From NCBI GenBank assembly GCA_000697665.1, contig KL197768.1:99547-139476 (forward strand): a stretch of 39,930 nt of DNA. The letters are read 5' to 3'. Below, piece after piece: positions 2,011 through 29,533 of the stretch. The stretch comes from Jaapia argillacea MUCL 33604 (lineage: Eukaryota; Basidiomycota; Agaricomycetes; Jaapiales; Jaapiaceae). Below the pieces are notes generated by a model that was not told the origin of the DNA, searched no databases, and saw only the letters and a list, made by a program, of their open reading frames with translations. A program made the position numbers and the translations under genes. Positions within the stretch are counted from its first letter, which is position 1; each line of letters opens with the position of its first letter.

Positions 2011-4234
2011 ATGCAGCGCCAAAATCGATCCGAGAAAAAGGCCAAAAAATCAACTCCCTTTGTGATCAAGCCTGACGAGGTGAAGGTCGACCGTAGTAAC
2101 GTCCTTGGGAGAGGTGGCTTTGGAACCGTGTACCGTGGACGTTGGGGAGGTCATGATGTAGCTGTCAAACTCTTGGATCGAGGTATTTCCCCAGAAGTAA
2201 GTCTGCGTTCTTCCATCCCTCTCTGCCCCCTCATCTCTGGCTTCAGATCCTGCGGAAGGAAGTGGACGTATGGCAGTCCCTTCGACACCCCAATATTTTG
2301 GAATTTTACGGTTACAACTCATCGGATCCGTTATTCCTCGTGTCGGCCCTGAAGCAAGGTGACGCCCACGCTTTTCTTCGTAGTAACCCTGACGCCAGCC
2401 GACCAAAATTGGTATGTATATGTGATCAGTCCGATCCTGTAAGATCCGCCGTTGATCGCAGATATGTCCTTCAGCTCTATGAGACTTCCCTGGGCTTGCA
2501 ACATCTCCATCGCCATTCAATCATTCACGGAGATGTGAAAGCGGTGGGCTCTCTCATATCTCGTTTTATTAACGAACTCTGATCGTCGAACATTAGCTCA
2601 ATATATTGGTCGACCGACGTGGGACGGCGTGCCTATCCGATTTTGGCTTATCGCGAGTTAGAGAGCTTTCGACAGGCAGCTCAGGCAGCAACAACAAGGG
2701 TGGACCTAAAGGTTCGTTTCGATGGATGGCTCCGGAGTGTATGGTGGGTACTATCCTGGGTACTCCGATGTCAGACATCTACAGCTTCGGGATGACGATA
2801 TATGAAGTGAGATTTTTATGGAAGCTCTACGCCTTGTCTTCTTCTGATGTGTCCCAAATCGAGCGTAGATATTCACTGGACACCCACCTTTTCCTGGGCT
2901 CACTGATCCAGTGATATATGTCGAGGTTGCGGAGCGGAAGAAACGTCCTAATCGCCCTACTGATCAAGAGATCGAGTCATGCGGTCTGGATGAATCGACG
3001 CAGTTGATTTGGTCGATCGTCTCAAAGTGTTGGCGAAGCTGTATGCAGAGCGCCAAGCTGTTTCACTGGCACAACGGGACACACGCCCACCCCGGCGTAC
3101 CTCCTCATACACCAACACCGGGGATGTTATTGGACCGTCAGGTCAGGGTGGTGCCGATCGGGGATCATCAGTCCACTCCCGGAGAGGCACCTCGCAACCT
3201 TTTGCTTGGCAGACTCTTTGTGCGAACGAGGACTCAGGTGATTCAAAGTTCGTTATACATGCTCAGGAAACAAATCCGAAGCAGACCATGATCGGTGATC
3301 ATGTGTGAGTGATGACCTCAGATCGGTGCAGCGAAGTATGAGTTACTCACCAATCATTTGTCCACAGTATCATCGACCAACTTTCGCGAAGTACCGACAC
3401 CGAAATCAGTGCCCCGGCCCCTCCACCCACCCCAGCCAGTAGTGAGGAAGCGGAACCTACTCGGTCTCAGGTGAGCTAGCTCATGCTCAAGGATATCTTT
3501 ACTCCGGTCTCATCTCCTCTGGTAGGTCTTTCCCAAACCCAGCTTATCGCTAATCGCGTTAAATACCTCCTCCACCAATTTGAAAGCACCGGTCGGCTGG
3601 AGGACTTGGACGAAGTAATCAAGCTCGATCGAGAAGCGCTCATGCTTCAATCAGCACCCAATCTTAACCGTGCTCTCGTCCTGGAAGATCTTGCATATGA
3701 ACTAGGCTTACGATTCAGACAAACTGGTCGGCTCAGCAATCTAGATGAAGTGATAAAGCTACACCGGGAAGCCCTCGATATTCGGACGGAACCCTCTCCT
3801 GGCCGAGCACAGTTACTCGCGCACCTCGCCTGGAGCTTCTGACTCAACTATCCATTGACCTCGGCAAACGATTCGAGCTCACGAAGGCTTTGGACGACTT
3901 GGACGAGGCAGTAGCAGTGGGTCATGAAGCACTCATTCTCCAGCCAAAACCCAATGCCAACCGAGCTCGGTTGCTGACCACCCTTGGCGTCTACCTCTCG
4001 AAAAGGTTCGACTCCACTTCCCAGAAGACGGACTTGGACGACTCCATAGTACTTTTCCGCGGAGCCCTGAATCTTTACCCAGGATCCTCGAACCGCGAGA
4101 GGCTCTCCCAAGCTATAGAAAGCCTCACTACGAGATATAATCACTTTGGAGCGACTGAGGATTTGGAGGAGTTGGATAGGCTTTGGAAGGAGAAATGGAA
4201 GCTGGGTCGTGATCCTCCCTCTCCTCAGTGGTGA
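2011..4234 (+). CDS. TKL Ser/Thr kinase fused to C-terminal TPR repeats (copy A), reading frame disturbed
   Basis: Exons 2011-2196, 2247-2411, 2475-2543, 2597-2806 and 2869 onward join in frame into a protein kinase. It has a glycine loop GRGGFGTV, VAVK lysine, HGDVKALNIL catalytic loop, SDFGLS, WMAPE, and an IFTGHPPFPG segment leading to KCWRS. A Ser/Pro-rich linker follows, then about four TPR-like repeats of the DLDEV/DLDEA type (3526-4200). Frame breaks appear at two places. Near 3040 the expected end of the kinase (YAERQAVSLAQR) is in another frame; an alternative intron from about 3041 would also restore frame but would delete that helix. Near 3840 a TGA falls inside a repeat and the array resumes two frames on. 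The linker joins the TPRs in frame only if the donor is at 3439. Related to the copies at 35241 and 37969. It is either a recent pseudogene or carries sequencing errors; the kinase core itself looks catalytic. Confidence 0.72.
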
Positions 4235-5134
4235 CCAGATGGGCTCATCATTCGTTTCCTGTTGGCAAGTACCTTGATTTACCATCCGTCGTTTTGATTC
4301 TTCCGCATCGAATTTATTGACTCTGTTCATGGTAGACACTTTCGGAGGGAACTTGAAGAAGAATGTCACGACCGATCCAGATATCAACCGAAGAGGTCTT
4401 GCGCGTGGATTCAACGGCCGTGAAACCGAAGGGGAGATAGCTCCACCCAAAGGCGGGATTATCTATTGCTGAGTCTCCGTGGCTTCACAGTATCACATTG
4501 GCGACCCATTTCCAATGCGAACATTCAACATAATCATCCTAGCATCAAATGTCGAGCTCCAGTCGTGGGAGGGAGGGGAAGCTACATTGCTACGATTCGC
4601 CTTGATGGCAAGGGGACGGAACATCTTATTCATGACGAGGTCGGAGTTGAACCAGAGGGAAGGTAGATCAGTCGAACTGTGCCACAGACGTTATGCAGCA
4701 GTAAAGTTGGTTGAGATGTATGTAGGAGATCGGCGAGAGTTTGAGTTGCTGTAGCCAGTTCCTGGAGAGTTCGATCCCACCCGGCAGAAAATGAATTGAT
4801 GAAGGTGGAAGCCAAGTTGGAGCATTCTGTCTCGTGTCGAGATGCCCACGGCGGATGTTGAAGTTTCTTCCTCTCCCAACCATCGTAGGCGCTGATGTGT
4901 AACCTCTGGCTTCCCCCTCACTGTTCTCTAGGTCTCTAGGCTTGCATATTCCTTTGACTCTCCACAATCCCTTCAACATATCCCGATGTCACGGAATTCG
5001 TCGATCAGCGTCGGTGGCGATGCCAGTTTGCGTCGTCGTTCGGCTGCACTTTGTTAGCCGACCAACCACTTTACAAAAGATTCCGTTCCTCAAGGAACTT
5101 GCTCTCGATCAACCGCCTGCCATCTCGCTATCAG
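4235..5134. other. Intergenic, no supported gene
   Basis: Frames at 4479-4754 (plus) and 4630-4815 or 4668-4979 (minus) are open, but none joins to neighbours or shows a domain. The last 100 bases before 5135 partly match the segment before the second SDR at 11277 (a shared CCGACCAA, then TTACAAAAG here against TATAAAAG there). They probably hold the degraded promoter of the SDR pseudogene. Confidence 0.45.
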
Positions 5135-6295
5135 ATGTCTTGGAGATTGTTTGCTCGTAATAACGCTATCGAACGCGTAAGTCGTTGTCTCTCCATGAAC
5201 AACTGGCAATAGCCTTTATCTCATCAACCATCTCCCCAGTTTCGACACGGAGAAAGACCATGGGCACTTGTGACGGGTGCTTCAGATGGGATTGGGAAAG
5301 CGTAAGTCCTTTTTCTTAACCTAATCTATCCATCTCCCTGTCGCTGAGACCACTCTCCCAGCCTCGCCCATTCCCTTGCTGACCGAGGCTTTAACGTCCT
5401 CCTTCATGGCCGAAACTCAGCCAAACTGGATCAAGTCCGAGAAGAACTTCTCTTAGCCTACCCCACTCGCGAATTCGACATCATAGTCGCCGATGCGACC
5501 CAACCGGCACTCGTTTCGAAGGTGGCGGAAGCTGTTGTTGGGAAGAGGGTGACGGTGGTTATCAATAACGTAGGAGATGTTGGGGGGCCCGTTCAACTTG
5601 TGACGAATGCTACAGCCGAAGGTTTGTTGTTCTCTTCGGTTTTTATGTACCCCCGGGGATTGAAATACTGATTCAACCTGATTGTTCGCCAATAGACATC
5701 GAGAAGTGCATCAACCTTGGCGTGTCGTGGTTACCCCGGCTTACCCGCGTCTTGCTCCCTCATCTCATCACCAACCAACCTTCCCTAATAATCAACATCG
5801 GAAGCCTGGTCGCCGAGCATCCCGCGCCTTACTTAGCTATTTACTCAGCTGCGAATGCATATACCCAGGTAAGTTTGTATCTCTTCCCTTACGACCCGAG
5901 ACTTGACACGCTCGTGCTATCGTTAGGCGTTCACTCACGCGTTAGCTGTCGAAAACTGAAGACCACATCCGAATCTCAAAATCCAATATCATGAAATACA
6001 TGGCGTCTCGACCCTAGTCTCCAAAACCCCAGAATCATTCATCATCCCTTCCCCTCCAACGATCGCGCAAGCCATCGTCTGTTCCGTAGGCGCGTAATTT
6101 CGCCTGTCCATACACGAAGGCTGAGCTGACTTCCATCATGCACCTTTAGGCAGGAGAAGTGATTATGTCGTGCCGTACTGGCCACACAAGTTGACGGGGT
6201 GGATCATGGCTTGTATACCCAATGGTTGGGTTGATGGAATGTTGGAGAAGACAATGGGTGAAAGGAGGGCGGACGTCCAGGGAAACGATAACTAG
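5135..6295 (+). pseudogene. Short-chain dehydrogenase/reductase copy 1, inactivated (17beta-HSD/3-ketoacyl-CoA reductase type)
   Basis: Six exons (5135-5176, 5240-5301, 5362-5621, 5696-5868, 5927 to about 6087, then from about 6150 to 6295) match the SDR at 11277 in structure. The cofactor loop VTGASDGIG and the INNVG motif resemble the 17beta-hydroxysteroid dehydrogenase 12 / very-long-chain 3-ketoacyl-CoA reductase branch. Three defects are visible. The YxxxK active site reads YSAAN, with Asn (AAT 5854-5856) in place of the catalytic Lys. An in-frame TGA lies at 5957-5959 where copy 2 has CGA. The last donor is GGCGCGTAAT instead of GGTAAGT. The reading frame is otherwise preserved, so decay looks recent. 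The N-terminal membrane anchor common in ketoacyl-CoA reductases is not seen. It converges on the kinase gene ending at 6423, with 127 bp between. Confidence 0.82.
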
Positions 6296-7680
6296 GTTTC
6301 CTTCGCATTTCTTATTCCAGATATCTTCTAATTTCTCGAAGTTGTTATTTATTACGACCGAGGATTTGCATACGAGATACGGCTACAAGTACACTGCTAC
6401 GTAGATAGACAGTCCATAGTATTTATCCCAACATTTGAACAACTCCATTCATAGTTGGACGTAACAACGGCTCTGCATCTACGCACCGTTCTACCACGCC
6501 CCACAGACGGTCATCTAAGCCTGCAACCACAAGAGCAGGGTCTCTCGGTCGTGACGGCTTTTGTCCGCGTTGGATCTTGGCCATCATGATTTGAAGGTCG
6601 CTCATTGTTGGGAATGGTAATTCACCTGTGAAAATCTGAAAGGAAGGTAATACGGGATTTGATATGCATCTTCCTAAAGGGCGAGAGCTGAGAAGCTTTA
6701 CCTGGACAATAAGGCATCCAAATGCATAGACGTCGCTTCGGGCTGTGGGTCGAGTTTCGGGTAGGAAGAGTTCAGGGGCGGCGAACTGAGCCAGCCCGAG
6801 AGTTGGGATTCGGGATGGGGTCATCGAGTGGGACGATAACTTTTCTAGATGTCGGGTCAAACCGAAATCGGCCAAGAGAGCATTGCCTTCTTCCGAAACC
6901 AGGACATTATCCTGCCAAGCAGTCAACGAGGGTTGAGTTTCTAAACCTGTAGAAGGACGTACCCCTTTCAGATCCCCGTGAACGTACGACCAACCAGACT
7001 TTCCGGAGTGAAGGTAGTGTAAAGCTTGTGCGGTCTGTGACAACTGTTAAACAATGAAATTAACGCACGAGTAGGAGTGATAGCTAAGGAAACGTACCAG
7101 TTTGACACGGTCAGCATTTGGGTTAAGTTTGAGATACCGTAAACAATCGCCATTGTGGACCCAAGGAGAAATCATGCAGAAGAATGACCCGTCGAGAACC
7201 GTAAAGCCCAAGAACTGTAGAATATACGGGTGATTCATTCGGGACCATATCTTCACTTCGTGACGAAAGAGCTTGGTTGTGGTATGAGTTAGATTCCATT
7301 ATATTAACACGAAGATGGAGGAGATACCTTGAGGCAATCACCATTATGCTCAAGGTAAACTCGCAGTTTCTTCATCGCAACCTCCACCTTTTGACCTTGA
7401 TGATCCCAAACACCACGGTAAACATCTGAGAATCCACCTCCTCGAATTGGGCCTCCTACGATAACCACACTATTACCAAGGTCAAGGGGACCTCCATCAT
7501 CGTATTCAAATGTCGAGGCCTCCTCAATACCTCGGGAGTCCTGGGTCTAAGCTTAAGCGCCTGGGCAGAGAAGTTACTGCAGTCGCTTACCGAAGTAGTA
7601 GCTCCTGAGACCTCCGCCGCCGGCACTGACGAAGTCACAGACTCTGCCGGACGAGTGGTTTGCTCCCTCCCACGCACCGT
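5135..7680. repeat. Duplicated block, copy 1 (SDR plus convergent kinase cassette)
   Basis: The plus-strand SDR and the minus-strand kinase 3' half have the same order, orientation, exon pattern and short spacing as 11277-13800. Homology of the kinase genes fades in the linker near 7651-7680 (protein context GREQTTRP against ERQTARP). The two blocks lie in direct orientation about 6.1 kb apart. Confidence 0.8.
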
Positions 7681-9695
7681 GTGTCCATTTCCGAGGATGC
7701 TAGTCTTGGACGAAACCCCAATTTTCGCGAGTAGTTCTGGAGGTAGTGTGGTGACAAGTAGTCGGACGAGACGATTCATTTCTTTTTCTGCATTCCCCGC
7801 GTCGATAACATCTCGAACATGCGGTCGTGTGGTATAGTCAGAGATATCCTGATGGACAGTCGATAGAAGTGTCGACTTCCTGTATGACTCGAAGGCAAGA
7901 TCAACATCCTCCCATGTGAGAGGCCTCGAACGTTTGGCCAACATAACGAGAAGCAGATTTTCGAGGATGGCGATGAGGTCGACAATATACGCCATCAAAC
8001 ATTTCAGCGTTTCGGGACTACGACACTTGTCAGCACTGGAAGGACAAACTGGCCGAGGAGAACCTACGTCATTTGAGAAGTGTCATGTACCAACTTGATA
8101 AACGTCGACGATAAACCCACGACGTCTACGGCAGCCCCAGTGGGAGTAGAGATGGCCTGCAAGATGGAAGCAATGTTGTTGTTGCTACATGTCGACGAGT
8201 GAGCGTCGGTATCGCGGGACGATACAAGTCACCAACTTACTCTGACGTCGTGGCGGCGTTATCGGGTGCTAGTCCCTCAATGAGCCCCAAGACCATGCCT
8301 TTGAATTTAAGCCCTGAAAGAAGCTGGAGACTAACTTAATCATCAGACGCGACGGAAGAAGCGAAGACTCATACTTTCTGTGGATCGTTGAAGTTCCATA
8401 CGGAGACCATGTCGGTATGGACTGCGTCGAGGAATGCCATGAAGCCCTTTTGGCCAGCTATCGCTTTTGCACAGAGACCATCCCAATAACCTGCGGGCGA
8501 TGACATCCATAGGTATGAGTTGAAGGTACATAATGGACAACTCACGTTTCATCCCAACACTGTGAATAGTGGATTAGGTCAGGAATAATCATACGAAGGA
8601 TTTGGGTTGGATTCATACGCAATTGATGCCTCGAGCTTCAGGGGAACACTGACTCGTTGTACAATGGCCCAAAGGATCCAGACATCCCCTTCAACGTGGC
8701 GCACGATGATGTCGTAGGTGACATTGGCCAACCAAAGCAACGAGGAAGTGTCATCGCCTAAAATGTAAGAGGAGCGTGAGTCAAATCGGCGGGAACGGGT
8801 CGACCGGACTGTCAAAGCTCACGAGAGACTTTCACGCAGCTCGTATTCGGAGCAAGGCGAGCCAAGGGCTCTTTACAATGCTCCTCCAAAAATCGTTCAC
8901 CCTGCTTCTCAGCTTCAGGGGCTATCTCTTCTTTGGAAAGTTTACCCCTCAGCTTGTTGCGCTCCAGAAGGAGGAGCAAGTCAAACTTGGTGAATACGAC
9001 GACGATCGGTACTGCGGCACGCTCAGCGATTACCAGCGATACCAGTTTCGCAAAGAGCGTTTACGACTCACGCGTATCCTGCATGAGCTGTAGCAACTCC
9101 TCGGTCCCGGTCTCGAACAAACGCCCACCCGCCCGGGGAACCTCAATACAGAGCCTGCGAGACGGTTGTCGAAAAATCTGTTGGACACAAAGGATGACTC
9201 ACCAGATGGCATGAAGTCTGTCCTTGATCTTAGGCTCGGCCATCCGGCGCTTAACAAAATCCTTTATCTTGTTCAAGGCATCGACATCGCCGGGCTCGAG
9301 ACCTTGAGAATCGTGGAGGACGAACAAAGGGTTGTCTGGAGATGTAATTTCGTCGTCGATGTTTGATTTACCAGCATGATGTTCAGATACTTTCTGATAG
9401 CGAATCACATGAGGTCGATGCAACTGATGTAAGGAACATGGATATCTTACTGCGAGGTCGACATTGAAGGTGCGATTGATCAGGGTAGACTTCCCAACTC
9501 CGGTCTGTGAACTTATGAGACGCCATAAGAAACCCTGCGAAACAGCCCCTCACCGTTCCAATCACCAAGATGCGGAAACTGTGGCAGTACGTACAGAACG
9601 CTCAGGAGGCGCAAGAGTGTCCCTGTTTGACGATCTTACCGAGAGTACTCCTCGATGACCTCTGCAGCTCTTGATGGAAGATCCGGACTGTCCAT
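6423..9695 (-). CDS. Fusion of a P-loop GTPase domain to a TKL Ser/Thr kinase
   Basis: From ATG 9695, a chain of about 16 exons joins without a frame break into roughly 793 residues ending at TAA 6423. Residues about 20-200 form a GTPase: G1 GTTGVGKST, G3 HDSQG, G4 FTKFD, with conserved TSPDNPLFVLH and RLHAIWLC stretches typical of a basidiomycete G-domain family. Residues about 200-460 are helical (for example AYIVDLIAILENLLL). A Ser/Thr/Pro linker leads to a kinase at about 525-793: GPIRGGGFSDV, VAMKK, VHGDLKGDNVLV, ADFGLTR, FAAPELF, SDVYAFGC, RPTM. All catalytic residues are present, so an active cytosolic kinase gated by a nucleotide switch is plausible. One exon is only 14 nt (8546-8559). 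The key junction is phase 0 after a shared ATTS linker, and the same junction occurs in the kinase gene at 12539. The fusion is my splice model, not a measured transcript. Confidence 0.82.
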
Positions 9696-11276
9696 GATGG
9701 GTGGGAGTTCAAGGTCAAGATCAACACGCGGCTGCGTAGCGCTCGCAAAGGAAGCTCAAAGTTGTGCCATCGATTCTGCCAAACTAACGCCCAGCGCCTA
9801 TAGAAGCCACTTCAAGCCAGCTGGGCGTTGCGCCTCGTGTTGAGGTCAGAGTTCTAAGTTTCGTAAATGATGATACCAGCTCTTTCGATACAAGATTGGT
9901 GGTTGTCGCGCCATGAACGAGGGATCTAGTTGACATAGCGTCGAGAATAAGTACTAATTCCAACGAGCTCGACGCAACCGACTCGGACGGTGATGAGGAG
10001 TGATGAAGCTAGAGAAATACTGGGCGGCCCGTACAGGCCAGTTGACTCGGGCAGGTGATCGAATGACAGACCAACGCAGTGCCACCATAGCACAACCTCT
10101 GCTAGCGTCCCACAATCAGACTTCGAACTGGCAAGGAGGGGCAGGGGGCGACTGGCTGTTACATGTCACTGACGCGCTCAGCTACATATCTGGAGGTCCA
10201 GGGTTTATATTTTCGGATACCCAACACCATCGTGATTCCAGTAGGAGCAGCTCGGATGTATGGGCGCTGGCCATCGGGAGTTGAGACTATGGTTAAGCAT
10301 TCACTCACTCCCTCGTCATCGAAACCGAGGGACACACTCTAATCTCATAGTCCAATCTGACGAGTTACACTTCCTCTCGAATCTAGGGAAGCAAGAACAT
10401 CATTCATGCCCTACGGAACCACACGAGTTGTCGCGGACCGCGGTGGATCATGGCGTCTATGCACAAAGATCGGGCTGGTGGCTCGGGGGTGAAAGGAAGA
10501 TCGACTTTCAGGGAAATGATTCCAGCTGGGTTCGCGTCATATTTGTTTGTTGTTCTCTTGTTAACCGATTGCTTGACGCTGTTGTTAGCGTGAACCTCGA
10601 TGCACTCACTGCTATGAGTTCCTCACTTCCTCCATTTGCGGTCTATTTGTAGACAGTGGTCATTCGGGGAAATGATGTCCCGGTTTGTGTCATATCGATT
10701 TGTCCTTGGTCTCTCGTCTGAGCTGACGTGAGGACGATGCAAACCTTCGGAGAAAGGATACGCCGCTGCGTAGATATCCATCTCTGAATCGCGGAATCGT
10801 ATCCACGATCCACGAACCCTCGAAAATGTACGAGCCAGCATCACTTTGGAATTGCCAAGAGTCTGGGGTGGATATGCTTTGGAAGAGGACATGAATCTAG
10901 CCAGTAAGTCTCCCCCATTTGAATACTTATCACGTCCGGAACCTCAGTTCCTCATCCCTCGGGCCTCAGTGCTAGCAAACGAAGCATGGTCATACGATCA
11001 TCACACTTGACCGTCACGGAACGAAGTTACGATGATCAGAGCCCTCCCTCCACCATCGGTGCTCGTAAGGAGCCTCTGGCTTGCCCATCGTAGCCTTCTA
11101 TGCTTCCTTAGCATCCGATATCATACCGGTGCTACGCGTTACCATGTACGTGGTCACCCCTCAACTGCACTTACCTGGCCGACCAATATCTGTATAAAAG
11201 GGTTGGTCAACGAAGACACTTTCCCAACAAGCTTCGTTGCACCCGTCTGAATACCGCCCGATACGCACCTGAAAGT
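9696..11276. other. Long intergenic stretch between the duplicated blocks
   Basis: Several 60-130 codon frames are open on both strands (for example 10260-10652 plus, 10623-10892 minus). None has a domain, a matching neighbour exon or a paralogue in the window. No transposon protein is seen. The right end holds the promoter region of the second SDR. Confidence 0.45.
11193..11199 (+). promoter_or_regulatory. TATA box of SDR copy 2
   Basis: TATAAAA lies 78 bp before the ATG at 11277, inside a segment shared with SDR copy 1, where the same place reads TTACAAAAG. Position and conservation support a core promoter element that has decayed in copy 1. Confidence 0.5.
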
Positions 11277-12433
11277 ATGTTTTGGAGATTATTCACTCGT
11301 AGCAGCGATATCGAACGCGTAAGTCTTCAGCAGCCTTCCCGTGGCGACTGCCAAAGTCGCCTTTGCTCATCTACTTTTACTATACCCCAGTTCAGACATG
11401 GAGAGAGTCCATGGGCCCTTGTAACCGGTGCTTCCGATGGCATTGGGAAAGCGTAGGTCCATTTCCTCGCCAAGTCATCTGCCTGTCACTAACATCGTTC
11501 TCGTAGCCTCGTCCAAACTCTTGCTAGTAGAGGTTTCAATGTCCTCCTTCACGGCCGGAACCCAACGAAACTAGCGAAACTTCGAGAAGAACTTCTCTCA
11601 ATTTACCCCCGCTTGCGAATTCGACATCATAGTCGCCGATGCGACCCAGCCAGCCCTCGTTTCTAAAGTCGCCGAAGCTGTTGTTGGGAAGAGGCTGACC
11701 ATCGCGATCAATAATGTGGGAGATGTTGAAGGTCCGGTTCAAATCGTGGAGAATGCCACTCCAGAAGGTCCATGCTTTCCCTCAACCCTGATTCCTCTTG
11801 GCGAATTACATTTACTGATTGATCTTCTTTCTTCACAATAGACATTGAGAGGAGCATCAACCTCGGAGCTTCATGGTTGACCCAACTTACCCGCGTCTTA
11901 CTCCCTTATCTCATCGCCAATCAACCATCCCTTATGATCAATATTGGAAGCTTGGTCGCCAAGCACCCTTCACCCTACCTAGCTATCTACTCAGCTACGA
12001 AAGCCTATACCCTGGTGATCCTCTCCTCTATTTCTGTAAACCTAACAACAGACTAATAGTCCTTTGTAGGCATTCACTCATGCCTTGGCAGTCGAGCACC
12101 GAAAGCCCCACCCCAGCTTAAGAATCCAATACTGCGAAGTGCACGGGGTGGCAACTCCGTCCTCTAACAACCCAGAATCATTCATTATCCCTTCGCCGCA
12201 GACGATCGCGAAAGCGGTCATCAGTTCTGTTGGTAAGTTCTTCGATGCCCCCGCTCTGGGTTCATAACTAACACCCGGATGAATTCCCAGGTCGGAGAAG
12301 CGATTATGTCGTTCCATACTGGCCCCATGAGTTTATGAGTTGGGTTTTGGCTGGATTACCTGGTGGTTGGATTGATGCGATGTTGGAGACCATGTTCCGA
12401 GAGAAGAGGACCGACATTCGAGGTGATAAATAA
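11277..12433 (+). CDS. Short-chain dehydrogenase/reductase copy 2, one frameshift
   Basis: Exons 11277-11318, 11391-11452, 11507-11767, 11842-12014, 12070-12232 and 12291-12433 give about 280 residues. Visible motifs are VTGASDGIGKA (NAD(P)H binding), INNVGDV, INIGSLV with the serine region, and an intact YSATK active site (Lys codon 12000-12002). The type is closest to 17beta-HSD12 / 3-ketoacyl-CoA reductase, which reduces a keto group on acyl chains or steroids; the actual substrate is unknown. The N-terminal membrane helix of those enzymes is missing, so the protein may be soluble. Exon 3 carries one extra base in a C5 run at 11606-11610 compared with copy 1. It shifts the frame and leads to an early TAA. 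This is either a real loss or a homopolymer sequencing error. The gene converges on the kinase gene ending at 12539. Confidence 0.8.
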
Positions 12434-13800
12434 ACTCGATATGAGACTCGCTTTCTACCTTTTCGCTGTCTTATCTTCTCATGTCTTTCTTGACGTTTCA
12501 TCTCGTGTTAATATACATCTAATGATACACTACTAAGTCTATGGCACCAACCCAATCATCCGAACAATGTCATCCATTGTTGGACGCAAAGCTGAGTCCG
12601 AATCTGTACACTTTTCTACCAAGGCCCACATCTGGTCATCCAGGCCCGCCTGAGCCATAGCAGGGTCACTTGGTCGAGACGGCTTTTGTCGAAGCATAAT
12701 CTTGGCCATCATGATCTGCACGTCGCTCATATTCGGGAACGGCAATTCACCCGTGAAGATCTGAAAACCACGTAAACATACATCTCCCTAAATGGTGGGA
12801 GCTGCGAAGCAATACCTGGAGGACCAGACATCCGAAGGCGTAAACATCGCTTTGGGCCGTAGGCCTAGTTTCGGGTATGAACAGTTCAGGAGCCGCGAAT
12901 TGAGTCAGTCCGAGGGGAGGGATTTGGGATGGGGTTATCGAGAGGGAGGTCAACCTTTCTAGATGTCGAGTCAAACCGAAATCAGACAACAGAGCGTTTC
13001 CCTCTTCCGAAATGAGGACATTGTCCTGACCAGAAGGTTAGTGGGAGTAGAATTCAAAGCCGCCTGAAAGACGCACTCCTTTCAGGTCCCCGTGAACATA
13101 GGGACAACCAGCCTCTCCGGAATGAAGGTAGGCTAGAGCTTGTGCGATCTGCGAGAGCTGTCGAAGAATGAGTGTTATGTACGAGGCGAGCGTGATTGGT
13201 GAGAACACGTACCAGTTTGGGACGGTCTGTGTTGGGGTTTTGTATGAGATAATGCAAGCAATCGCCGTTGTGGACCCAAGGAGAAATCATGTACAGCAGT
13301 GACCCTTCGAGAACGCTGAAGCCTAGGAATGGTAGGATAAACTGGTGTTTCATCCGGGACCAGATCATCACTTCATGACGAAATAGCTTCGTAGATTATA
13401 GATCAGATTCAACAATACTAACACAAGATAGAGAGAGATACCTTGACAGCCTCATTTTTACGTTCGACGTAAACTCGAAGTTTTTTCATGGCAACCTCCA
13501 CTTTCCGTCCTTGATGATCCCAGACGCCGCGGTAAACATCTGAAAATCCACCTCCTCGAAGGGGACCTTCCACGATGACGACACTATCACCAAGGTCAAA
13601 CGGTCCTCCGTCGTCTCTTTGACCCATATCAAATATCAAGACTTTCCCAACACCTTGGGAGTCCTGGGTCTACGTTTAAGCGCTTGTACAGAGAAATGAG
13701 CGCAGTAGCTTACCGAAGTAGTGGTACTTGCGACCTGTGTCGGTGGCACTGACGAAGCAACAAAATCGCGAGGACGAGCCGTTTGACGCTCACGTGCCGT
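11277..13800. repeat. Duplicated block, copy 2 (SDR plus convergent kinase cassette)
   Basis: Partner of 5135-7680. The SDR, the roughly 105-bp gap and the reverse-strand kinase cassette keep order, intron positions and spacing. Homology of the kinase gene ends near 13771-13800, in the linker between the N-terminal module and the shared kinase. Confidence 0.8.
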
Positions 13801-15550
13801 GGGTCCACTTCTGTTGAGGTTGATCTTGGACAAAACCCGACTCATCGTCGGTCGTTCCGAAGGCGTTCTCTTCAAGCATAGTGTCATAATGTCCCGCATA
13901 TTCCTGGGGATCCCATCGACAATGCGAGAATACTGATGTCGACTCCAAGTCATAGTGTCTTGGAAGTCTGAGCGATTTGATGCGTTCATCGGTTGTCCCG
14001 TAAAGAGCTATGAAATAGACGTGCGTTAGGAAAGATTCCCTTCGAGTGAGATATTCGAATGCGGACTTCAAAGCATGTGCAACCATAGGCATAAACATCT
14101 GAAGCAAATGTTTTCTGATATTCTAAACCGAATTCGGCCGGATCGATGAGTTCGGGAGCCGTTGAAGAGTACTCGCCATCCCACTGGTCTGTGTGTCTTG
14201 TGGAATCGCGGTCAAAGACATCTGCCAGTGCAAACGAAGCGATTTTGACGCAGGAATGGTCGTCGACCAGAATTGAGTCCTGGAGCGGGCGGGAAGGTCA
14301 GATCCTTGAGAATAAGTAGCGAGAAACCATTTACGGCTCGTATATCTCCATGTACAATATCGTGGGCATGGATGTACATGAGACCAGACGCAACTTGCGC
14401 GAGCTAGAGGGCTCAGTTTAGTTGGTTAATTTTTATGAGTGGGTGAGAGCTGACTAATAAAGTGACACTATTTCCAGCTAGTTGATTGGCGGCCACATAC
14501 GCACGAAGGTTCCCATTTTCAAGCCAAGGTGAAACGACACACGGCGAGGTGCCATCAACGAAGACCCCAAGGAAGGGAAGAATGTTATCATGCTTTAGTT
14601 GTCGCCAAACGAGTGCTTCTCGGTAATAAATCTAGAAGGGCGGATTAACGGACGAACAAACGAGAGAGGGGAGTAATCGAAAGCAAACCTGGTTGATTTG
14701 GGTCTCGCTCAAGAATTGGTCGGAACCTCCATAATTTTTGACAGCAATGATTGTTTTCATCTGGAAGATGCCTTTGTGGATGGAAGCAAAGGCGCCAGAT
14801 GTTATCGGGTACTTGTCAAACCAGTCTACATTGGAGAGGACGATAGACGGAGGGAGGGTGTTGTATTGGAACGACGCTTGGATGAGGAGCACATGGATTG
14901 ATTTGCGAAGCTCCACGAGCTGTGGGACTGAATAGAAGGCTGATAAACGGAACAGTCTATACTTATGTTATATGCACGTTACGACCGACATTTGGATTCT
15001 CGAAGATCGTCAAGGGTCTAAGGGCTGTGATTAGACGAGGATAAATGATCGTCATCGCAACAATACCTTTTGCAGAACCTCCAGAAACGACACAGCATCT
15101 TTACCGGAGAATGAAAAGGCGAGTTTCTTGCCCTCCTCAGAATTGACAAGGACTTGGAGCAAACGGGCCACCTCCCCACCATCCTTCTCCATAGCTTCGC
15201 GTACAGTCTTCTCATCGCAAGCTTTGGAATCCAACAGGAGCTGTAAATTCGGGTGAGCGCCGCGCAAGTCGAAGGACACACAATGCGCACTTCACTCAGC
15301 CTTTCCTGAAGGCGACTGCGACGAGCCAGTGAGAGGGCAAGGGGTTGGCTAGAGACTTCCCGGAGGAGATATTGGAGTGATTCAGCCTCTGGTTCAGTTT
15401 TGTGGTCTTTAGGCTCAGATCGGCCAACCGTGGATGCTGCCAGCAAGGCCAAGTTCTACACCAATCAGTTAAGTCCGGGAATAGCGAGCGGGGAGGCAGC
15501 ATTGCACTCAGGACCTGGCAAACAGGGAATTGTCCAGAAAGTGAGTCCAT
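12539..15550 (-). CDS. Tandem pseudokinase-kinase protein (two TKL domains)
   Basis: Joining exons from ATG 15550 down to TAG 12539 gives about 770 residues in one frame. Residues 1-150 form a helical leader (LLDSKACDEKTVREA and LQVLVNSEEGKKL). Residues about 160-440 are a kinase fold: loop ITSGAFASI, lysine in IIAVKN, HGDIRADSILVDD, then IASFALADV, TAPELI, SDVYAYGC, PSERPTM. The magnesium-binding Asn is Ser, and DFG reads SFA, so this domain should be catalytically dead. After a linker ending STTTS, a second kinase (about 490-770) has GPLRGGGFSDV, VAMKK, VHGDLKGDNVLI, SDFGLTR, FAAPELF and RPTM, and looks active. It is a close relative of the kinase half of the gene at 6423. The likely role is signalling, with the first domain as sensor or regulator (inference). 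The true start could be further upstream, near 16020. Confidence 0.8.
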
Positions 15551-16500
15551 GGCAGAGATATCAGGCAAGGTCCCTAGTGTCCGTGGTTGCGTCAATCGTA
15601 AGTCAAGAGGATGATGGAAAGCTCGTGAGATCCAGCATATCCCAGTTGATGCTGGGTGGGCGGACTGAGTGCCGACGGCAAAACTTGTTCACGCTGGCAA
15701 AGTCGGTCTCCCGCGTCGTTCAAAACGGTTGACATCGTTGTATGTGTCCTCATCACTCTCGTTCAAGGAAACTCTGTCGATACCACATCGACTTCGTCGC
15801 TACCCTATCTGGCCGATCATCCAGAGATCGCAATGTCGACTCCGTCCGCAGCTGGAGTCCACTCCTCCGATGAAGAGAGCACGTGACAGGATAGGGCTTG
15901 TAAAGAAAGAAGTCAGGAAAGAGGGTCGGTACTGGACTTGGAATGATACAGTATCTGCCCAAAAACCTCCCCGAACTTTCAGGGAATCGTTGAACATGGC
16001 CTGTCCAGCGTCGACCAACACTGGAGCAACTCGAACACATACAGGCAGGACGATCGCCGGTGATTTGGGAATGCTTCTGGGCGGGTTGAGGTTAGTTCTC
16101 GTGGCTGGCGTTTGGCCTTGTTTGCCGTTGATCTACTTTGACGTCCGCCAAATTCCCCAGTGACACCGTTCGTCTCCCAGCGCCTGCTTGAAGCTGTTGA
16201 AGTGTATGAACCAAGGACTCTCGATGGTTTAGCTTGGGTTTGGACTCAGCACCGACCCCTATTGGTACTGCGCCGTTCGAGGACCTCACCAGGATCAAAC
16301 ATGATTGATATTATGCTTTCACGAAACATCCTGTCGGCCCTACGAAAGTAGCTAAGGCAGCCCATATATAAAACGTGAGTTTCCATGCCTATCCTTCAGC
16401 CAGTATTCCTCCCATATCCATCTGTCTTCTTGCACGTCTGTTCCACAACGACATATCGGCTTCTCCCTGACTTTCCCCTTCTTCGCCCTCGAACATCTTT
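15551..16500. other. Upstream region of the tandem kinase gene, unresolved open frames
   Basis: On the minus strand 15800-16021 reads plausibly as protein near its start (VDAGQAMFNDSLKVRGGFW), followed by a GT at the end of ADTVSFQ. It may be an upstream exon of the tandem kinase gene or a separate small gene. I could not connect it in frame. Plus-strand frames at 15400-16163 look like shadows. Confidence 0.35.
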
Positions 16501-16521
16501 ATCGCCTCCTTCCGGTCACAC

Positions 16522-17055
16522 CTACCCGGCATTCGCTCTCCGGTACGATTTTTGCCATTGAGCTAATGCTTCGAGGTAGGCAGGGCAAGTTTGATTCCAG
16601 GCAGGGTGACCCCCTCCGCAGTTCGGGCAACAATGGGCTCGACTGGAACACTTGCCTTGCGGATGGCCTAAACTGCATTTTGGGCAGACGTATCCGTCGT
16701 GCGAACAATCTCTAGCCCAGTGTCCCCACTTCTGACACTTGAAGCAACGCGAAGGTTTCTTCCATACCGCCTCCAGCTTGTCTGCGCGAAACCATGTCTC
16801 GTCAAGTTCTATCCCTCTCTTCACAACCGCCTCTGCTATCTCTTCGTCTCGGAACTTTATCTTCACGTTGGCCACTTCTTGCCCGACGGCCCTCCTCTCA
16901 GGCAGCACGACCCAATCGATCTCCAATACGGATCCCCTTGGGAGATCATTCACGTCCTCGACTCTCTCCTTCTCTCCAGAAGCCTCCAGTTTGAATGCCA
17001 CTGGTACAAATTTCACCTGTACCGGGAACGTCTTCGTCTCCGTGGAATCCTCCGT
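16522..17055 (-). mobile_element. Fragment of a retrotransposon Gag-like ORF1 with zinc knuckles
   Basis: About 178 codons are open. The first part (PVQVKFVPVAFKLEA, NDLPRGSVLEIDWV, VANVKIKFRD) matches the layout of Gag-like ORF1 proteins of fungal non-LTR retrotransposons. Cysteine knuckles follow: CFKCQKWGHWARDC (CCHC), CPKCSLGHPQGKC, and CPNCGGGHPAWNQTCPA. Such proteins bind the element's RNA. A TAA at 17056-17058 closes the frame upstream and a TAG ends it at 16522. No reverse transcriptase or endonuclease is present next to it, so it is a dead fragment or a co-opted exon. A GTAAGT about 60 bp upstream could in principle splice the preceding open frame onto it. Confidence 0.7.
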
Positions 17056-17073
17056 TTATCAGGCTATGCGGCG

Positions 17074-17647
17074 TCAAAAAAGTGTATCCTCACGACTTAC
17101 CTTTCCCGTAGGTCTAGGGGCGGTATTTCTCTCGGCCACGAGTGCTTGATCTTCCGTATAGATCCCTCCATGTTCCTGTGGTGTAGTCACGTCCTCTTCG
17201 AGATCTACGCGGACCGGTCGAGCTCGGAGCCGTCCTCCCCGAGTTGTCTCAATATCCGCTAAACCTATGCACTCTCCTCGTTCAGCGCTGGAGTGTCTAC
17301 GTGGGATACGTGAGTCAGAGACTGGGGGCTCGAAAAAGGTCAACACACTGGTCCTCTTCTCGTAGCTTTTTAGCTCCCTCCCTGTTTCGATTGGAGTAGA
17401 TGGTCCTTAATTGACGGCAGACAGCGATGGTCAATTTAATTAAGTGGGAGATGCATGGCTCGTACCATCCTGTGGGGACAGCAGCGACGAGAGAAAATGC
17501 CCCCGAAACTAGGGCGAGTCCGTGGTGACTTTGGACAATGCCAATTATAGTCGAGATCAGCGTTCCCCCCGTTATGACCAGACCTCCAAATAGCCCGCGT
17601 CGCTGTCCGACTGTCAGGTCGCGATGGAAATCAATGATCCGACTCAT
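17074..17647 (-). CDS. Putative small membrane protein with a polar tail
   Basis: From ATG 17647 the frame has two hydrophobic stretches (LFGGLVITGGTLISTIIGIV and LALVSGAFSLVAAV) and then a GTACGA donor. A separate frame at 17074-17346 is a charged tail (for example RPVRVDLEEDVTTPQE) that ends at 17074. I could not make the two join in phase with the visible acceptor (CAATTAAG). The gene may therefore be split, broken, or two unrelated frames. No family is recognised. It lies directly upstream of the Gag fragment. Confidence 0.33.
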
Positions 17648-18173
17648 GGGGGAGAGCGCAGGGTGAAAGAGAAGGAGATGAATGCGAACGCTGACACGAA
17701 CATGCAGCAACAGTAAGAACAGCAAGGCTGTGCACTTAAGGTGATCTGGGCAATGTGAAAGCATGCTGTGCTCCAGTGCTTTTGCTTTCGTTGGACATTC
17801 CTTGGGCGTCAAGTATCGTGATCGACGCTAGCCGTCAGCGCATGTTTGTGAAATAACCCCCTTGGACGCTGGGAATCACATCAATCACATTCTTCCCACA
17901 CAGCATTATCCGTCGACAATACATTGCATCCTAGAGGCCGCGTACTGCTTTCGACATCCACACCGGAATGTGATTACCGCTGGGATGGAGTTGGAGAGGA
18001 ATCACGACGTGTCGCCGCAGCGCCGCGGCATGCCACCCCTTTCACCCATGCTTTACGCCTATCATTTATACTTTTGAAGTTTGTCGAGTAGTTGTACTCC
18101 GATAGAAGGGGATGCGACTACGAACAAGCAATTCAGATAGATATTATGTATAGTTTCGGGAATAAGACTTACC
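17648..18173. other. Intergenic, nothing recognised
   Basis: Short open frames only, on both strands. A GTAAG-like donor lies immediately after the stop codon of the kinase gene that ends at 18174, which may mark an intron in its 3' untranslated region. Confidence 0.4.
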
Positions 18174-21100
18174 TCAGGTTGGGATGACAGGTTCCCGATA
18201 TACTGACAATGTGGATGATATTTCATCCATAGTAGGTCTCGAGGATGGCTGGTGTTCCACACATCTTCCGATCAGATCCCACCACGTTTGATCGAGCCCA
18301 GCTTTGATTGCCTGTTGATCAGTCGGTCGTTCGGCTAGCGGCTTCGTACCATGCAGAACCTTGGCCGTGATCACTTCGACGTCCGTCATGCCAGAATAGG
18401 GGAGCTTTCCCGTGAATACCTGGGAAAATCTGTATCTCAGAGAGTGATTTAGGGGGCTGATTTGACTGACCTGAACGATGAGACACCCGAAGGCATATAC
18501 ATCACTTTCTCGTGTCGGTCTGTCGCACGAAAGAAGTTCAGGCGAAGCAAACCTAACAAGACCCATGGCAGGTATTATCGACGGAGTGGCGGACATGAAG
18601 GCACACATCTTTTCCATGTGGCGAGTGAGGCCGAAATCTGCGAGCAGTGCGTTGCCTTCGTCGGAGATGAGGACATTATCCTACAGATTTGAATGTCACC
18701 AATTATCATCAGGGAACGTCGTCAGTAAGGTTGTGTACTCACCCACTTCACGTCACCATGAATATACGAAGTTCCCGATCTCCCCGAATGAAGGTAGTCC
18801 AAAGCGTCTGCGACTTGAGACAGCTAACAGTTGGGCTCTTGTGAGGGAATCGTTGATAAGAGGAAGAGCTGATCGGAAGTCAACATACCAATTTTGAACG
18901 ATCTGCGTGGGGGTGTGTTTCCAGGTACTCCATACAATGACCGTTTCTAATCCAAGGGGATACCATAAAAAATTGGGTGTCCCCAATTATGGAATATCCG
19001 AGAAACGGTAAAATATACGGATGCTCAAACTTTGACCAAATCTTCACCTCCCGACGAAAAAGCTGCCCGGCATCTTGGCTTAGTGATAGTGCAGGGCGAT
19101 ACAGATGAGAATCAAGATGCGACGCACCCGTATTGCTTGAGCAGAAATACCACTATAAACACGTAGTTGCTTCATTGCAACTAAAGAACGGTGGGTTCCA
19201 CTTTGACATTCCCCCAGGAAGATATCGCAGTATCCGCCACCTCGGATCGGCCCCTCAAGCACGACAGCGCTGTTACTGAGATCTGCAGGTTCCTGAACAG
19301 AATCGTCCCCAGTATGGAATCGGAAAATTGTGCCCAAAGCGCATAGGCCCTGAAATATCTGTCGGTACCAATACGTGAATACCTGCAAACAAAACGAACC
19401 ATAGCAGCCTTTGTCTCTTCATTCGCCAACAAGTCCGGTTTGTCTTCTGTTCTTCTGCCCACAAGCTCGTTCACATCCGCAGCGCCATTAACGATTCCCA
19501 TCGATGGAGAAGAGAAGAGAGTTCGGCCGGGGGTCAATTCTCCGGAAGGAGAGGAGGCTGGGATATCGGAATGGAGAGGCACCTCTTCGGCGAAAACACT
19601 TGTGTCGCCGAAAGCGTAAAAGACCTTCTCCGTTGCATGTAAGATTCTCCTCGCTCCACCCAGATTATCGTTGGCTGTGACAAAAACATTGATACTGCCC
19701 CGAGTAGCTCTTAGTTTGAGCTTCTTTTGCAGTAGAGTCGTCAAGTCGGAGACGATACATGTCCGGTGAAGGTGTATCGTATGAATTGCCGGCCCTGCCA
19801 CTTCGCTCCCGAGCCATGTTACGTGAACACACGCGGGGTCGTGCTGCTGGACCCCCCAGTAGAGCGAGTTACATAGATCGCATATAATGCTGGATTCTAC
19901 ATCAGCTGGGTCTTCTCCTATACCCATGAATTGGAATTCGACATCGGGTTCTAGAAATGATGTAACAGACGCATATAAGTCGAGATCATTGTGACTGAGG
20001 CGGGTGTAGCAGGTATGACCTGACAGAGCAACGCGATGATGGGATTGACATATGGGAGAGACCGAAGGGAGGTCGGGGAAGTGTTGTGTGATCTCGGAGA
20101 CAAGTGCGAACCAGGCGGACCAGGCGGTGGGGATGACGTGCGGCGGCACTTCCGAGTTGTCTGCTCCGTGGACAGCGGCCAGAGTAAGCCACACGACAAC
20201 GCCAAGAAATGTACGAGGGTCCGTGCTACGAGGAGTAAAAGGGTAGCGCCCAGCCGCATTGCCGACCTTCGAGGAACAACTGGCGAGCATCGTTTGCAGG
20301 TGGAACCAATCCCAATGGGTCCACTGGCTAGAAAAAAATTGTATTCGCCAGGCATCAGGATACCTGTTAACCCACGGACAAGACCAGACAGAAGGATCAT
20401 CAACGGCGAGGAACTGCCCCAGTTTGATCTGGGAGTGGACGATGGCTTGGGGGGTGAATACGCTCGAGACAGACGTGTAAATCCGCTCTGCCACGGTGCC
20501 TTCGAATAGTGCTTCGGCGTCTGTGTGGGTAGCTGAAAGCCAGATGATTGCGTGCAACATTTGGGGGTGAACATTTCCCAGAATGTCTTTGGTAATTGTG
20601 ATAATTCCAGGACTGGGTGTCTCCACCGCTGTATAGCGTAAATCTTCTGCAAAGCCATACCACGATGTAGTGGGGATCGAACTATAGAATAAAATCAGCT
20701 CGCCACCGAGATATTCGGTAACTCGGTTTGCTCATACCAGGAACAATCAATGCGATTCATACACAAGACCCCAAGCTCTGCCTTGTCGTACAGCCATAAC
20801 ATGAAGTCATGCCAATGCCTCAGATCCTCACGAGACAGTTCCAGGAGGGGAGGGCGATGACAACGATGCCCGGCTCCATCCATGGCTGCCTCGAACTGAG
20901 AAAATCTATCATCATCCAAAACATACGAATGGTCCGGAATCCGCTGGAGGATGAGGCATAATTTTTCGACGGCGTATCCGATGTACAGGGTCCGAAGTGA
21001 CCTCAATCCGCTTTGCAGGTCGACTTCCACCTTCGCAGCAGAAGTCATAGCCAACCACGCGATGGCTGCGAAACGAAGCCCTGAATCAGGAGTCCCTTGA

Positions 21101-21594
21101 ACCCTATGTCGGAGTGCAGGATCTATTGCAGAGGAAAGAAGTGGATCGTCGGAAGATTTGTAGTGTTGACTTCGAGATAAGGCATGCTCCGCCTCACGCC
21201 AAATGCCGTCAAAAAGGGCTGGCGGCGCCCACGGCATGAGCCCAGCAAAATGCTCTGCCCGTGCCTCATCACCGTCCTTCCATAACCAAACGTCGTTTTT
21301 GGGGTCACGGCGGTCAATAAGTCGTAACCATGTTTCTACGACCGCTCGCGGGACGAGCTTCGGTTCAGCGGTCAAACCGATATCCTCCATGGCTAACAAT
21401 ACAGCGAAAAGGAATAGTAGACGATGACGAAACTCGTGAATGCGCGGGGGTGGAGAGGGGGAACTTGAATCTGCTGATAACGGGGGTGCGGTGTCGACGG
21501 CTGAAGGGGGGCCATCAGGCTGGAGTTCTGCGGAAGGAAGGTAATGTATGGGACGTGGGTGCGGGTGACTTCGATGGTTGTTCGATTGCACCAT
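18174..21594 (-). CDS. TKL Ser/Thr kinase with a long unrecognised N-terminal region
   Basis: The C-terminal third (about 18174-19350) is a kinase of the same subfamily as those at 6423 and 12539: GPIRGGGYCDI, VAMKQ, IHGDVKWDNVLI, ADFGLTR, FASPELL, SDVYAFGC, RPTM. All catalytic residues are present; Ser replaces Ala in the APE motif. Upstream, a 480-codon frame (19181-20626) and a 299-codon frame (20695-21594) are open on the same strand and separated by under 120 bp, so I treat them as exons of one gene of about 1,000-1,100 residues. A splice from about 20745 (TGTATGA) to 20632 fits the phase. The join into the kinase needs a very short (about 41 nt) intron near 19385. The N-terminal region has no motif I know; it contains a CDLCNSLYWG stretch and a Ser/Pro linker. 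The start codon is tentative. Confidence 0.7.
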
Positions 21595-28094: not shown

Positions 28095-29490
28095 TCAAGC
28101 GACTCCATTGAGGGTGTTTGCTGCCGCGATTGGCTGCCCCTTGTCAACCCAATCAAGGAGAACGAAGTTGGGAGCTCGACCGCCTGCGAGGGGGGCACAC
28201 CCGTAGGCATTGGTTAAGATCCTAGAACGGGAGTGCGTTAGAGCATAGGAACGTAATGTTAATGATAGCACATTACGATTTGACACCGTTGGTCGTTGGT
28301 GCATCTGGGCCATCAGGAATAGGAACGCCAAGGACGTTAGTGTCGAGGTAGTGATTGATCATGTACATGTGATCTGTGTTGGCAAGTGGGCCATTGGTGC
28401 GATCGATCTTGCATGGGAACGAAGCGTCCGTCGAGTCAAATGGAGTTTCCCATATCTATCATTCGTGGCAATGAGTGTCCGGGAGTAAGGTCCGTTAGCA
28501 TTGGAGAGGTGGGGACGTACCATTGGGAATTCCATGAGAATATAGTTGGCGGAAGATCCATCCTTTGGGGCGGCATCCATGAAGACAACCAACCGTTTTC
28601 CACTATCAATCATGCTCCCCAGCGTAGGCCAGGATGATTGCTTGACTGGAGTGCTTGAGGGGATGTAGACGTAATCAAGAATCCCGGAGGCGACGAATGC
28701 GGGATGCCACATATTGGCGATGGAGAGGCCGTCGGGGTTGGTAAAGATAAAGGTGATTACTTCATTTGGATTGGCGTCAAGGAAGGTTTTGACTTTGCTA
28801 AGGTACGCTAAATGTCATGGAGGCGTGAAACTTCGGCGTTACATTGAAAAGGAACTCAACTTTACCCGAGACAGTGCCACCGTCAAATATGAGCTTGGAA
28901 GATAAGTCAGTGCGGAGAAGATCTCCATGGATGCGACGCTCACGCAAGCTAACATGGTCAGCACGAGATAATGGCAAGTTTAATCGCAGTACGCACTGGT
29001 ATGACAGAAGTGAAGTTCCCCGTTATTCCTAGCTCGAATGAGATGAAAAAAATCTGAGAGGTGGCGGAAATCGTACTCATGGGCTTGAGCTTGAAGAAGG
29101 CGAACCCCCAGACTAAGCTGAGCGGGTATGTCAACTTCTTGAGTTCTGCCAACTGGACGAGAATTAGCGAGGTCGCGGAATGCGAAAAACGGGATGGAAG
29201 TACCAGCCAAAATGGAGGTGCTGGAAGCGAATGAGTCATGGGCTGAAACCAGAACTTGTAAGAGGAGGCAGAGGATCCGAAAAAATTGAAAGCAGACCCC
29301 CAATAAAGGTGACATTTCCATAGCCTCTGTTGCATAGTTGGGCATGACCATTGCATACCGTGGCGCTAAGGGGAGCTTGAGGACTTGACAGAAGGTAGGG
29401 ATGCTGGAAGGCAAAGTCTCACCGCGAGACCATAGGCGCGCCAAGCACGAACGGAGTAAGAACAGCCGCAAGTAGGAGGACACCCAACAT
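28095..29490 (-). CDS. Secreted PLC-like phosphodiesterase (PI-PLC X-type TIM barrel)
   Basis: ATG 29490 opens a signal peptide (MLGVLLLAAVLTPFVLG). Exons then give a TVCNGHAQLCNRGYGNV segment, AHDSFASSTSIL with the first active-site His, VDIPAQLSLGVRLLQAQ, LHFCHTS with the second His, and YLSKVKTFLDANPNEVITFI. Further on come DYVYIPSST, MIDSGKRLVVFMDA, MINHYLDTNVLGVPIP, ILTNAYGCAPLAG and PNFVLLDWVDKGQPI. TGA is at 28095. Order and motifs match fungal PLC-like phosphodiesterases, secreted enzymes of the PI-PLC fold that lack the calcium-dependent C2 part; their natural substrates are poorly known. The gene has about eight exons. Most junctions are canonical; the intron after LHFCHTS is hard to place (a GC donor may be used) and the expected Cys is not visible. 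All other joins are in frame. Confidence 0.85.
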
Positions 29491-29533
29491 GATGCCTTTA
29501 GTCGCGGTGGGTTGAATGCGACCGATTTTTTCG

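Follow-up and report, generated by a model that had tools for sequence, protein, structure and literature searches.

A TKL-type kinase cassette joined to different front modules in Jaapia argillacea, a gene family that probably grows by domain capture

The window analyzed here, 39,930 nucleotides from the basidiomycete Jaapia argillacea MUCL 33604 (G000:C60:99547-139476), is the right-hand end of contig C60 in a genome of 43.7 Mb and 95 contigs, and its last position, 39930, coincides with the end of that contig (139476); designations such as C8, C24, or C72 refer to other contigs of the same genome. Three minus-strand genes in the window, termed here A, B, and C, end in kinases of a single family, each preceded by a different front module. 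Gene models were built from the sequence, first with a small splice-aware script and afterwards manually, yielding 17 exons and 794 aa for A (6423-9695), 14 exons and 771 aa for B (12539-15550), and 7 exons and 1023 aa for C (18174-21594), all with GT-AG introns and with the kinase starting at about residues 519, 493, and 737, respectively. A 48-nt candidate intron in C (20375-20328) was rejected because relatives show this stretch to be coding; the Pfam scan, the gene-finder survey, the count of 16 module places, and the comparison of relatives described below used a version of C that is 16 residues shorter.

All three genes end in a PF07714 kinase of tyrosine kinase-like (TKL) type that scores over the Pfam cut-off (E 2.4e-36 for A and 2.3e-33 for C). 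The glycine loop reads GGGFSDV in A and B and GGGYCDI in C, and the VAMK lysine, HGD(L/V)K, DFG (as ADFGLTRH or SDFGLTRH), and (A/S)PE motifs are kept in every one, with SPE in C, so that the lysine, HxD, DFG, and APE elements of a TKL-type kinase are all found. Four phase-0 introns interrupt the kinase at identical positions in A, B, and C, and one more phase-0 intron lies in the linker. In a PDB search the solved structures scoring best against the cassette kinase were SymRK, B-Raf, and TNNI3K, which we take to be TKL or receptor-like kinases; the group is therefore TKL and probably has Ser/Thr specificity. At the DNA level, 5135-7718 around A aligns to 11277-13838 around B with 71.5% identity over 2625 aligned bases (E = 0), a likeness beyond chance that spans the linker, the kinase, and a convergent gene of the short-chain dehydrogenase/reductase (SDR) family. 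This homology stops at the border of the front module, and an ancient tandem architecture common to A and B was rejected on that ground.

The front module of A (7762..9695, minus strand) is a P-loop GTPase (GTTGVGKST, HDSQG, TKFD) with a C-terminal extension, matched by PF01926 (MMR_HSR1) over residues 21-145 with E 9.9e-7, over the cut-off; its weak relatives in the PDB are the GTPase Der (EngA) and septins. It is encoded by exons 9695-9640, 9578-9554, 9504-9451, 9393-9203, 9154-9072, 9011-8823, 8757-8619, 8559-8546, 8490-8375, 8323-8241, 8184-8068, and part of 8017-7591, whereas the linker and kinase cassette (6423..7717; VAMK, HGDLKGDN, DFG) continues into exons 7540-7328, 7271-7098, 7043-6963, 6911-6702, and 6635-6423. 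A stand-alone GTPase gene at C24:424-426k aligns with A from the start-codon region to about position 7761 at 77% DNA identity; it ends in a stop, and the 0.6 kb read on the far side contain no kinase. Upstream of the junction A thus resembles the stand-alone gene, and downstream it resembles B. Because the GTPase match ends at about 7761 and the match to B begins at 7718, the predicted fusion point lies within 7718..7761, inside a coding exon, and is pinned to 44 bp between two independent homologies.

A second GTPase-kinase gene, at C24:81.7k, matches A along its whole length (77.3% over 3297 aligned bases). The automatic gene finder produced no path for it, and its 17 exons came from projecting the exon borders of A, which gave GT-AG ends at 16 of 16 introns, a single, terminal stop, and lengths that differ from those in A by multiples of 3 in 17 of 17 exons. 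In A, C, and this fused C24 gene, the stretch of kinase exon 1 that separates the kinase from the preceding in-frame stop lacks an ATG, which argues for fusion and not for adjacent genes; on this evidence, together with the conservation of the 17-exon frame of A in C24, the separate-gene reading was rejected for A and C. Synonymous distances (dS), which like the nonsynonymous ones (dN) are simple and rough Nei-Gojobori values, were 0.85 between the kinases of A and B, 0.59 between A and the stand-alone GTPase, and 0.45 (kinase) and 0.51 (GTPase) between A and its C24 counterpart. This ranking suggests the order of events: the split of A from B, then that of A from the stand-alone GTPase, then that of A from the C24 copy.

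In gene B the front module (13839..15550, minus strand) consists of an N-terminal extension and a second PF07714 domain (aa 180-432), in which the catalytic loop reads HGDIRADS and SFA replaces DFG; as both DFG and the catalytic-loop Asn are absent, this domain is a TKL pseudokinase. It has phase-0 introns at the intron positions of the cassette. Its origin as a copy of the cassette was rejected, since its best match besides itself, C91:3081-3671, reaches 49%. The linker and kinase cassette of B (12539..13838; exons 13663-13442, 13386-13213, 13157-13077, 13025-12816, and 12760-12539) forms, with the convergent SDR gene, the stretch that is 71.5% identical to its counterpart around A. Its kinase exon has an in-frame ATG 11 codons upstream of the kinase, so the fusion in B rests on the homologous linker, the splice sites, and the frame.

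The front module of C (19400..21594, minus strand; exons 21594-20738 and 20681-19400) is made of two diverged repeats of about 200 aa each, ending in GHRCH and GHTCY, and is followed by the kinase cassette (18174..19349; exons 19349-19128, 19062-18889, 18823-18743, 18680-18471, and 18419-18174). A profile comparison, with 8 sequences in one profile and 7 in the other after filtering, related the repeats at 92-93% probability (E 4e-7 local, 9e-8 global). No Pfam family scored above the cut-off N-terminal to the kinase, the sole row being USP7_C2 (E 0.0025, under cut-off), and a further Pfam search with the module gave no row for C and, for one relative, a single row at E 0.17. As the PDB likewise returned just one row, at E 0.82, membership in a known family or fold was rejected. 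Additional Cys residues are conserved among three relatives, and zinc binding is our guess for this module. These models, motifs, and Pfam matches bear out an earlier note on this DNA, written from its letters, which had described three minus-strand genes with these ends, kinase motifs, and matching intron positions, an N-terminal GTPase in A and pseudokinase in B, and about 750 unrecognized residues in C.

The two-repeat module of C occurs at 16 places in the genome: in 7 kinase genes, near a kinase at C71:33k, and at 8 other places with no cassette match downstream among the kinase matches listed. At C71:33k, 3 kb separate the module from a kinase that has its own ATG, and the two were judged to be distinct genes. 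Module and kinase exon 1 share one uninterrupted open reading frame (ORF) in three of the seven kinase genes (C72:9.8k, C72:18k, and C83), and in the other four a predicted intron links them. Twelve of the 16 places cluster on the small contigs C67, C71, C72, and C83, which are perhaps fast-changing chromosome ends.

The genome was searched with the kinase of B, which gave 170 exon matches. Among those listed, 21 extra places with relatively strong matches were picked by eye; matches that were weaker or belonged to TKL kinases more generally did not enter the set, among them C13:637k (47% over one exon) and C60:62k (37%), and all counts refer to the places examined. Together with A, B, and C, the 21 make 24 places and, as two pairs of an active kinase with a pseudokinase were counted as one gene each, 22 genes. 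Two genes join the GTPase to the kinase (A and C24:81.7k), one the pseudokinase (B), seven the two-repeat module (C, C8:294k, C8:317k, C27:199k, C83:59k, C72:9.8k, and C72:18k), one a Sel1 module (C26:251k), and one an ataxin-2-derived module (C8:92k). Two more carry a pseudokinase C-terminally (C71:29k/28k and C42:256k/257k), joined by a short phase-0 intron of 60 and 55 nt, respectively. Five genes have no recognized module (C26:358k, C8:623k, C8:629k, C4:78k, and C72:12.6k) and three are broken (C26:379k, C71:49.6k, and C71:4.8k). Of the 21 extra places, 18 have exactly four introns, the exceptions being C42:256k with three, C27:199k with five (an aligner fit in the first exon), and the degenerate fit at C71:4.8k; the Lys, HGD, and DFG are kept in 19 of the 22 genes. 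The exchange of N-terminal modules on a common kinase that the earlier note had put forward is therefore strongly supported among the genes examined and reaches further than the note could tell, with five front modules and one C-terminal pseudokinase arrangement, and the table of N-terminal domains that it had proposed, compiled here within the one genome, has front modules varying on one kinase family. Upstream of the C8:294k chimera, at a distance of a few kb and within C8:294450-300500, is an ORF that by eye resembles a retrotransposon gag protein.

Three of the modules (GTPase, Sel1, and ataxin-2) are homologous to stand-alone proteins encoded in the same genome; for an integrated decoy, the copied host protein would in addition have to be a target of an invader. 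Five further copies of the GTPase lie on C24 (74.7k, 418k, 424k, 428k, and 495k), of which the 424k copy was read; the last four have no cassette nearby among the kinase matches listed, and the 74.7k copy lies on the opposite strand to the fused C24 gene, some 5 kb away. The Sel1 module aligns in two pieces, at 62% and 51%, with a stand-alone protein at C26:504-507k that scores as Sel1 (E 5.6e-23) and has the C-terminus CVIM, and a fragment of that stand-alone gene lies 2.8 kb from the broken kinase C26:379k (C26:379-382k). The module at C8:92-95k contains three copies of an Sm-like segment and a second segment, both matching gene C8:1207k (78% over 69 aa). The stand-alone gene C8:1207k was identified as ataxin-2/Pbp1 from its LsmAD domain (E 1.8e-29), which Pfam did not find in the C8:92k chimera; the Sm-like part, to which Pfam gave no score, is a putative one, named after the C8:1207k gene.

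Of 12 kinase pairs of the cassette, 11 had a finite dS and gave dN/dS of 0.10-0.29; the A-C pair was saturated. For the GTPase module of A the ratio was 0.29 against the fused C24 gene and 0.27 against the stand-alone gene (455 codons each, gapped codons excluded), with no excess change over its kinase, and for the ataxin-2 segments it was 0.17 over 148 codons (0.21, 0.25, and 0.03 singly); the Sel1 comparison was saturated in dS. These values indicate purifying selection on the kinase cassettes and the GTPase module. In the two-repeat module, dN was 1.2-4.5 times that of the attached kinase in all 9 comparisons (five gene pairs, which share genes and hence are not independent), with overlap of the bootstrap intervals in one comparison (second repeat of C27-C8:317k, 0.15-0.24 versus 0.12-0.20) and none in the other eight. 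Its dN/dS was 0.88 and 0.90 in two comparisons, one of them with C8:294k, whose module looks truncated and partly decayed, and 0.21-0.48 in the six others with finite dS. Module and kinase dS differ within a pair in both directions (0.21 versus 0.47; 1.5 versus 0.74), which means that dS is imprecise or that module and kinase have had different histories. The module appears to evolve fast, at rates that fall short of proof of positive selection.

In a midpoint-rooted kinase tree of 23 rows, A and the fused C24 gene form a pair (87/84) that B joins next (100/100); a larger group around these three (98/98) also takes in C and the genes with C-terminal pseudokinases. The two-repeat module appears in three separate kinase clades of this tree, a spread that would fit either ancestry or repeated capture. 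When distant kinases were added as an outgroup (26 rows, the two C-terminal pseudokinases left out), A, B, and the C24 gene remained together (97/100), and the A-C24 pairing, the larger group with C and the C-terminal pseudokinase genes, and the deep order were not recovered.

Taken as a whole, A, B, and C probably belong to a TKL-type kinase family that grows by domain capture, its front modules serving as inputs. Modular capture by the kinase cassette is evident from the sequence: the cassette (linker and five-exon kinase, with the convergent SDR gene in the branch of A, B, and C24) has been duplicated and is now found in frame 3' of different genes. From the architecture, a front module would act as an input that binds, localizes, or oligomerizes on a particular ligand or partner, so that the kinases, brought together or released from inhibition, would autophosphorylate and feed a common output; in A a GTP-driven switch would set assembly, and in B the degenerate kinase would be a regulatory or bait domain. 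Several points weigh against this reading: five of the 22 genes lack a recognized module and three are broken; C42:256k, one of the two genes with a C-terminal pseudokinase, carries an in-frame stop; the Sel1 repeat of the Sel1-kinase gene (C26:250k) scores 29.4 bits against a cut-off of 30.7 (E 1.1e-6); kinase exon 1 of the ataxin-2 chimera is frameshifted at a G run in the glycine-rich loop, so that this gene may be dead or misassembled; and the input and output logic, although the most likely mechanism, is read from architecture only.

That front modules and kinases are separate adjacent genes joined by faulty models is very improbable. The in-frame ATG in the kinase exon of B, the missing gene-finder path in C24, the separate module at C71:33k, and the sequence-based nature of the models would fit it, but kinase exon 1 of A, C, and C24 lacks an ATG, three genes run from module to kinase in one uninterrupted ORF, and the 17-exon structure is kept in C24. 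Transient chimeras, with duplicated cassettes landing beside genes, being briefly co-transcribed, and then decaying, would account for the three broken cassettes, the in-frame stop of C42:256k, the frameshift of the ataxin-2 chimera, and the Sel1-gene fragment next to the broken kinase at C26:379-382k; as the main explanation they are improbable given the low dN/dS of the kinases and the GTPase module and the fused frame that A and the C24 copy have kept over a dS of about 0.5. A much stronger contender, to which we give close to an even chance, is that these are regulatory or developmental kinases produced by ordinary lineage-specific TKL growth, in which shuffling supplies new inputs for development or stress and not recognition. 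Published work describes a large TKL set in Laccaria (PMC2838846) and a TK-near (FslK) lineage kept and expanded in Agaricomycetes (PMC3937382), and both the purifying selection and the 163 PF07714 exon matches in the genome agree with such growth, although it predicts neither a front module that evolves fast nor a single family that captures several unrelated host genes.

A surveillance system is a further possibility, which we regard as rather unlikely at about the same level whether stated generally or in its integrated-decoy form, where modules would copy host proteins attacked by mycoviruses, competitors, or non-self hyphae, and binding or damage would switch the kinase on. The stand-alone relatives of the modules and the faster change of the two-repeat module are as such a system would show: stand-alone relatives exist for three kinds of module, and two of these relatives, ataxin-2 (LsmAD) and the Sel1 protein, we judge to be ordinary conserved proteins; the two-repeat module outpaces its kinase in dN throughout. 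Precedents are the wheat proteins Lr9 and Sr43, parts of which have been hypothesized to be integrated decoys (PMC10260399), and protein kinases as one of 12 N-terminal classes of fungal NLRs (NOD-like receptors; PMC4986451). However, positive selection is not shown, the kinase and GTPase comparisons being purifying and the GTPase module no faster than its kinase; the speed of the two-repeat module could reflect relaxed constraint, with C8:294k partly decayed; unequal dS of module and kinase means that the parts may lack a single history; and five genes have no recognized module. An expanded TKL family that shuffles domains and has no immune function accounts for the same facts. We would therefore put forward only as speculation, and a shade more cautiously still, that fungi evolved their own kinase-fusion surveillance receptors, parallel to those of plants and independent of NLRs, with one kinase family as the platform that takes up vulnerable host proteins (GTPase, ataxin-2, Sel1, kinase) as baits.

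Among known systems, the mushroom TKL and FslK kinases are likewise large, lineage-specific TKL or TK-near sets, but the terms "domain architecture" and "N-terminal" are absent from the main text of PMC3937382, and the text of PMC2838846, which counts kinase-associated domains, lacks "Sel1", unlike the captured modules described here. Plant tandem-kinase and kinase-fusion proteins likewise join a kinase to a second kinase or to unrelated domains: in Lr9 (WTK6-vWA), a fusion of the tandem kinase type, integrated decoys are proposed to be the second kinase and the vWA domain, and Sr43 (PMC10260397) is named as another example (PMC10260399). By their sequences A, B, and C also place a kinase and a pseudokinase or non-kinase domain in one frame; here, by contrast, the host is a fungus, the modules are GTPase, Sel1, ataxin-2, and two-repeat ones, and a single cassette is reused within one genome. 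We treat the likeness as analogy. Fungal NLRs are modular too, include kinases among their N-terminal effector classes, and are numerous in Agaricomycetes (PMC4986451, PMC9815663), but membership was rejected: with E values up to 1 allowed and under the HMMER filters, A, B, and C returned no NACHT or NB-ARC row, and A carries MMR_HSR1. Plant NLRs with exogenous domain fusions (PMC5819176) show a similar repeated uptake of domains, the receiver here being a kinase and not an NLR. Across the titles and abstract openings covered, a literature that leaves many journals outside, no description of fungal kinases with captured N-terminal modules was found. Should the front modules prove to be sensors, NLRs would not be the sole means of intracellular recognition in mushrooms: there would be a second system with the build of the wheat kinase-fusion resistance proteins, a case of convergent evolution of integrated-decoy receptors. 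Even otherwise, one genome presents a capture together with its cassette, the stand-alone relative of the module, and a 44-bp junction, as well as an uncharacterized two-repeat module at 16 places that is partly coupled to kinases.

Convergent with A is an SDR gene on the plus strand (5135..6330, limits approximate) that belongs to the duplicated unit and is homologous to 11277-12480; PF00106 matches its ORF 5569-5994 with E 4.7e-5, just under the cut-off. Its homolog (11277..12480, limits again approximate, plus strand) is convergent with B, and the SDR gene beside the fused C24 gene (C24:79-81k) has 76.8% DNA identity to that of A over 651 bases. At all three loci of the A/B type the SDR and kinase genes are thus tail to tail, a pair that may be functionally linked or merely co-duplicated.

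Elsewhere in the window, no TTAGGG telomere repeats were found, and an Rfam search gave no match. Between B and C, 16525-17827 (minus strand) encodes a zinc-knuckle protein (PF00098, E 3.1e-5), possibly a mobile-element remnant, to which three places in the genome are distantly similar (28-39%). Several long coding-like stretches lie at 28100-33600 (minus strand), two ORFs of which, 32017-32970 and 28362-28814, matched no Pfam family at E 0.01. Another TKL kinase, with the motifs HGDVKALN and SDFGLS, is encoded at 2050-4300 (plus strand) and has a weak TPR signal after it (E 0.005, under cut-off); copies of it are found on the same strand at 35141-35849, broken by stops (near 35.2-35.9k), and at 37862-38643 (about 37.9-38.9k), with stops in the fitted frame.

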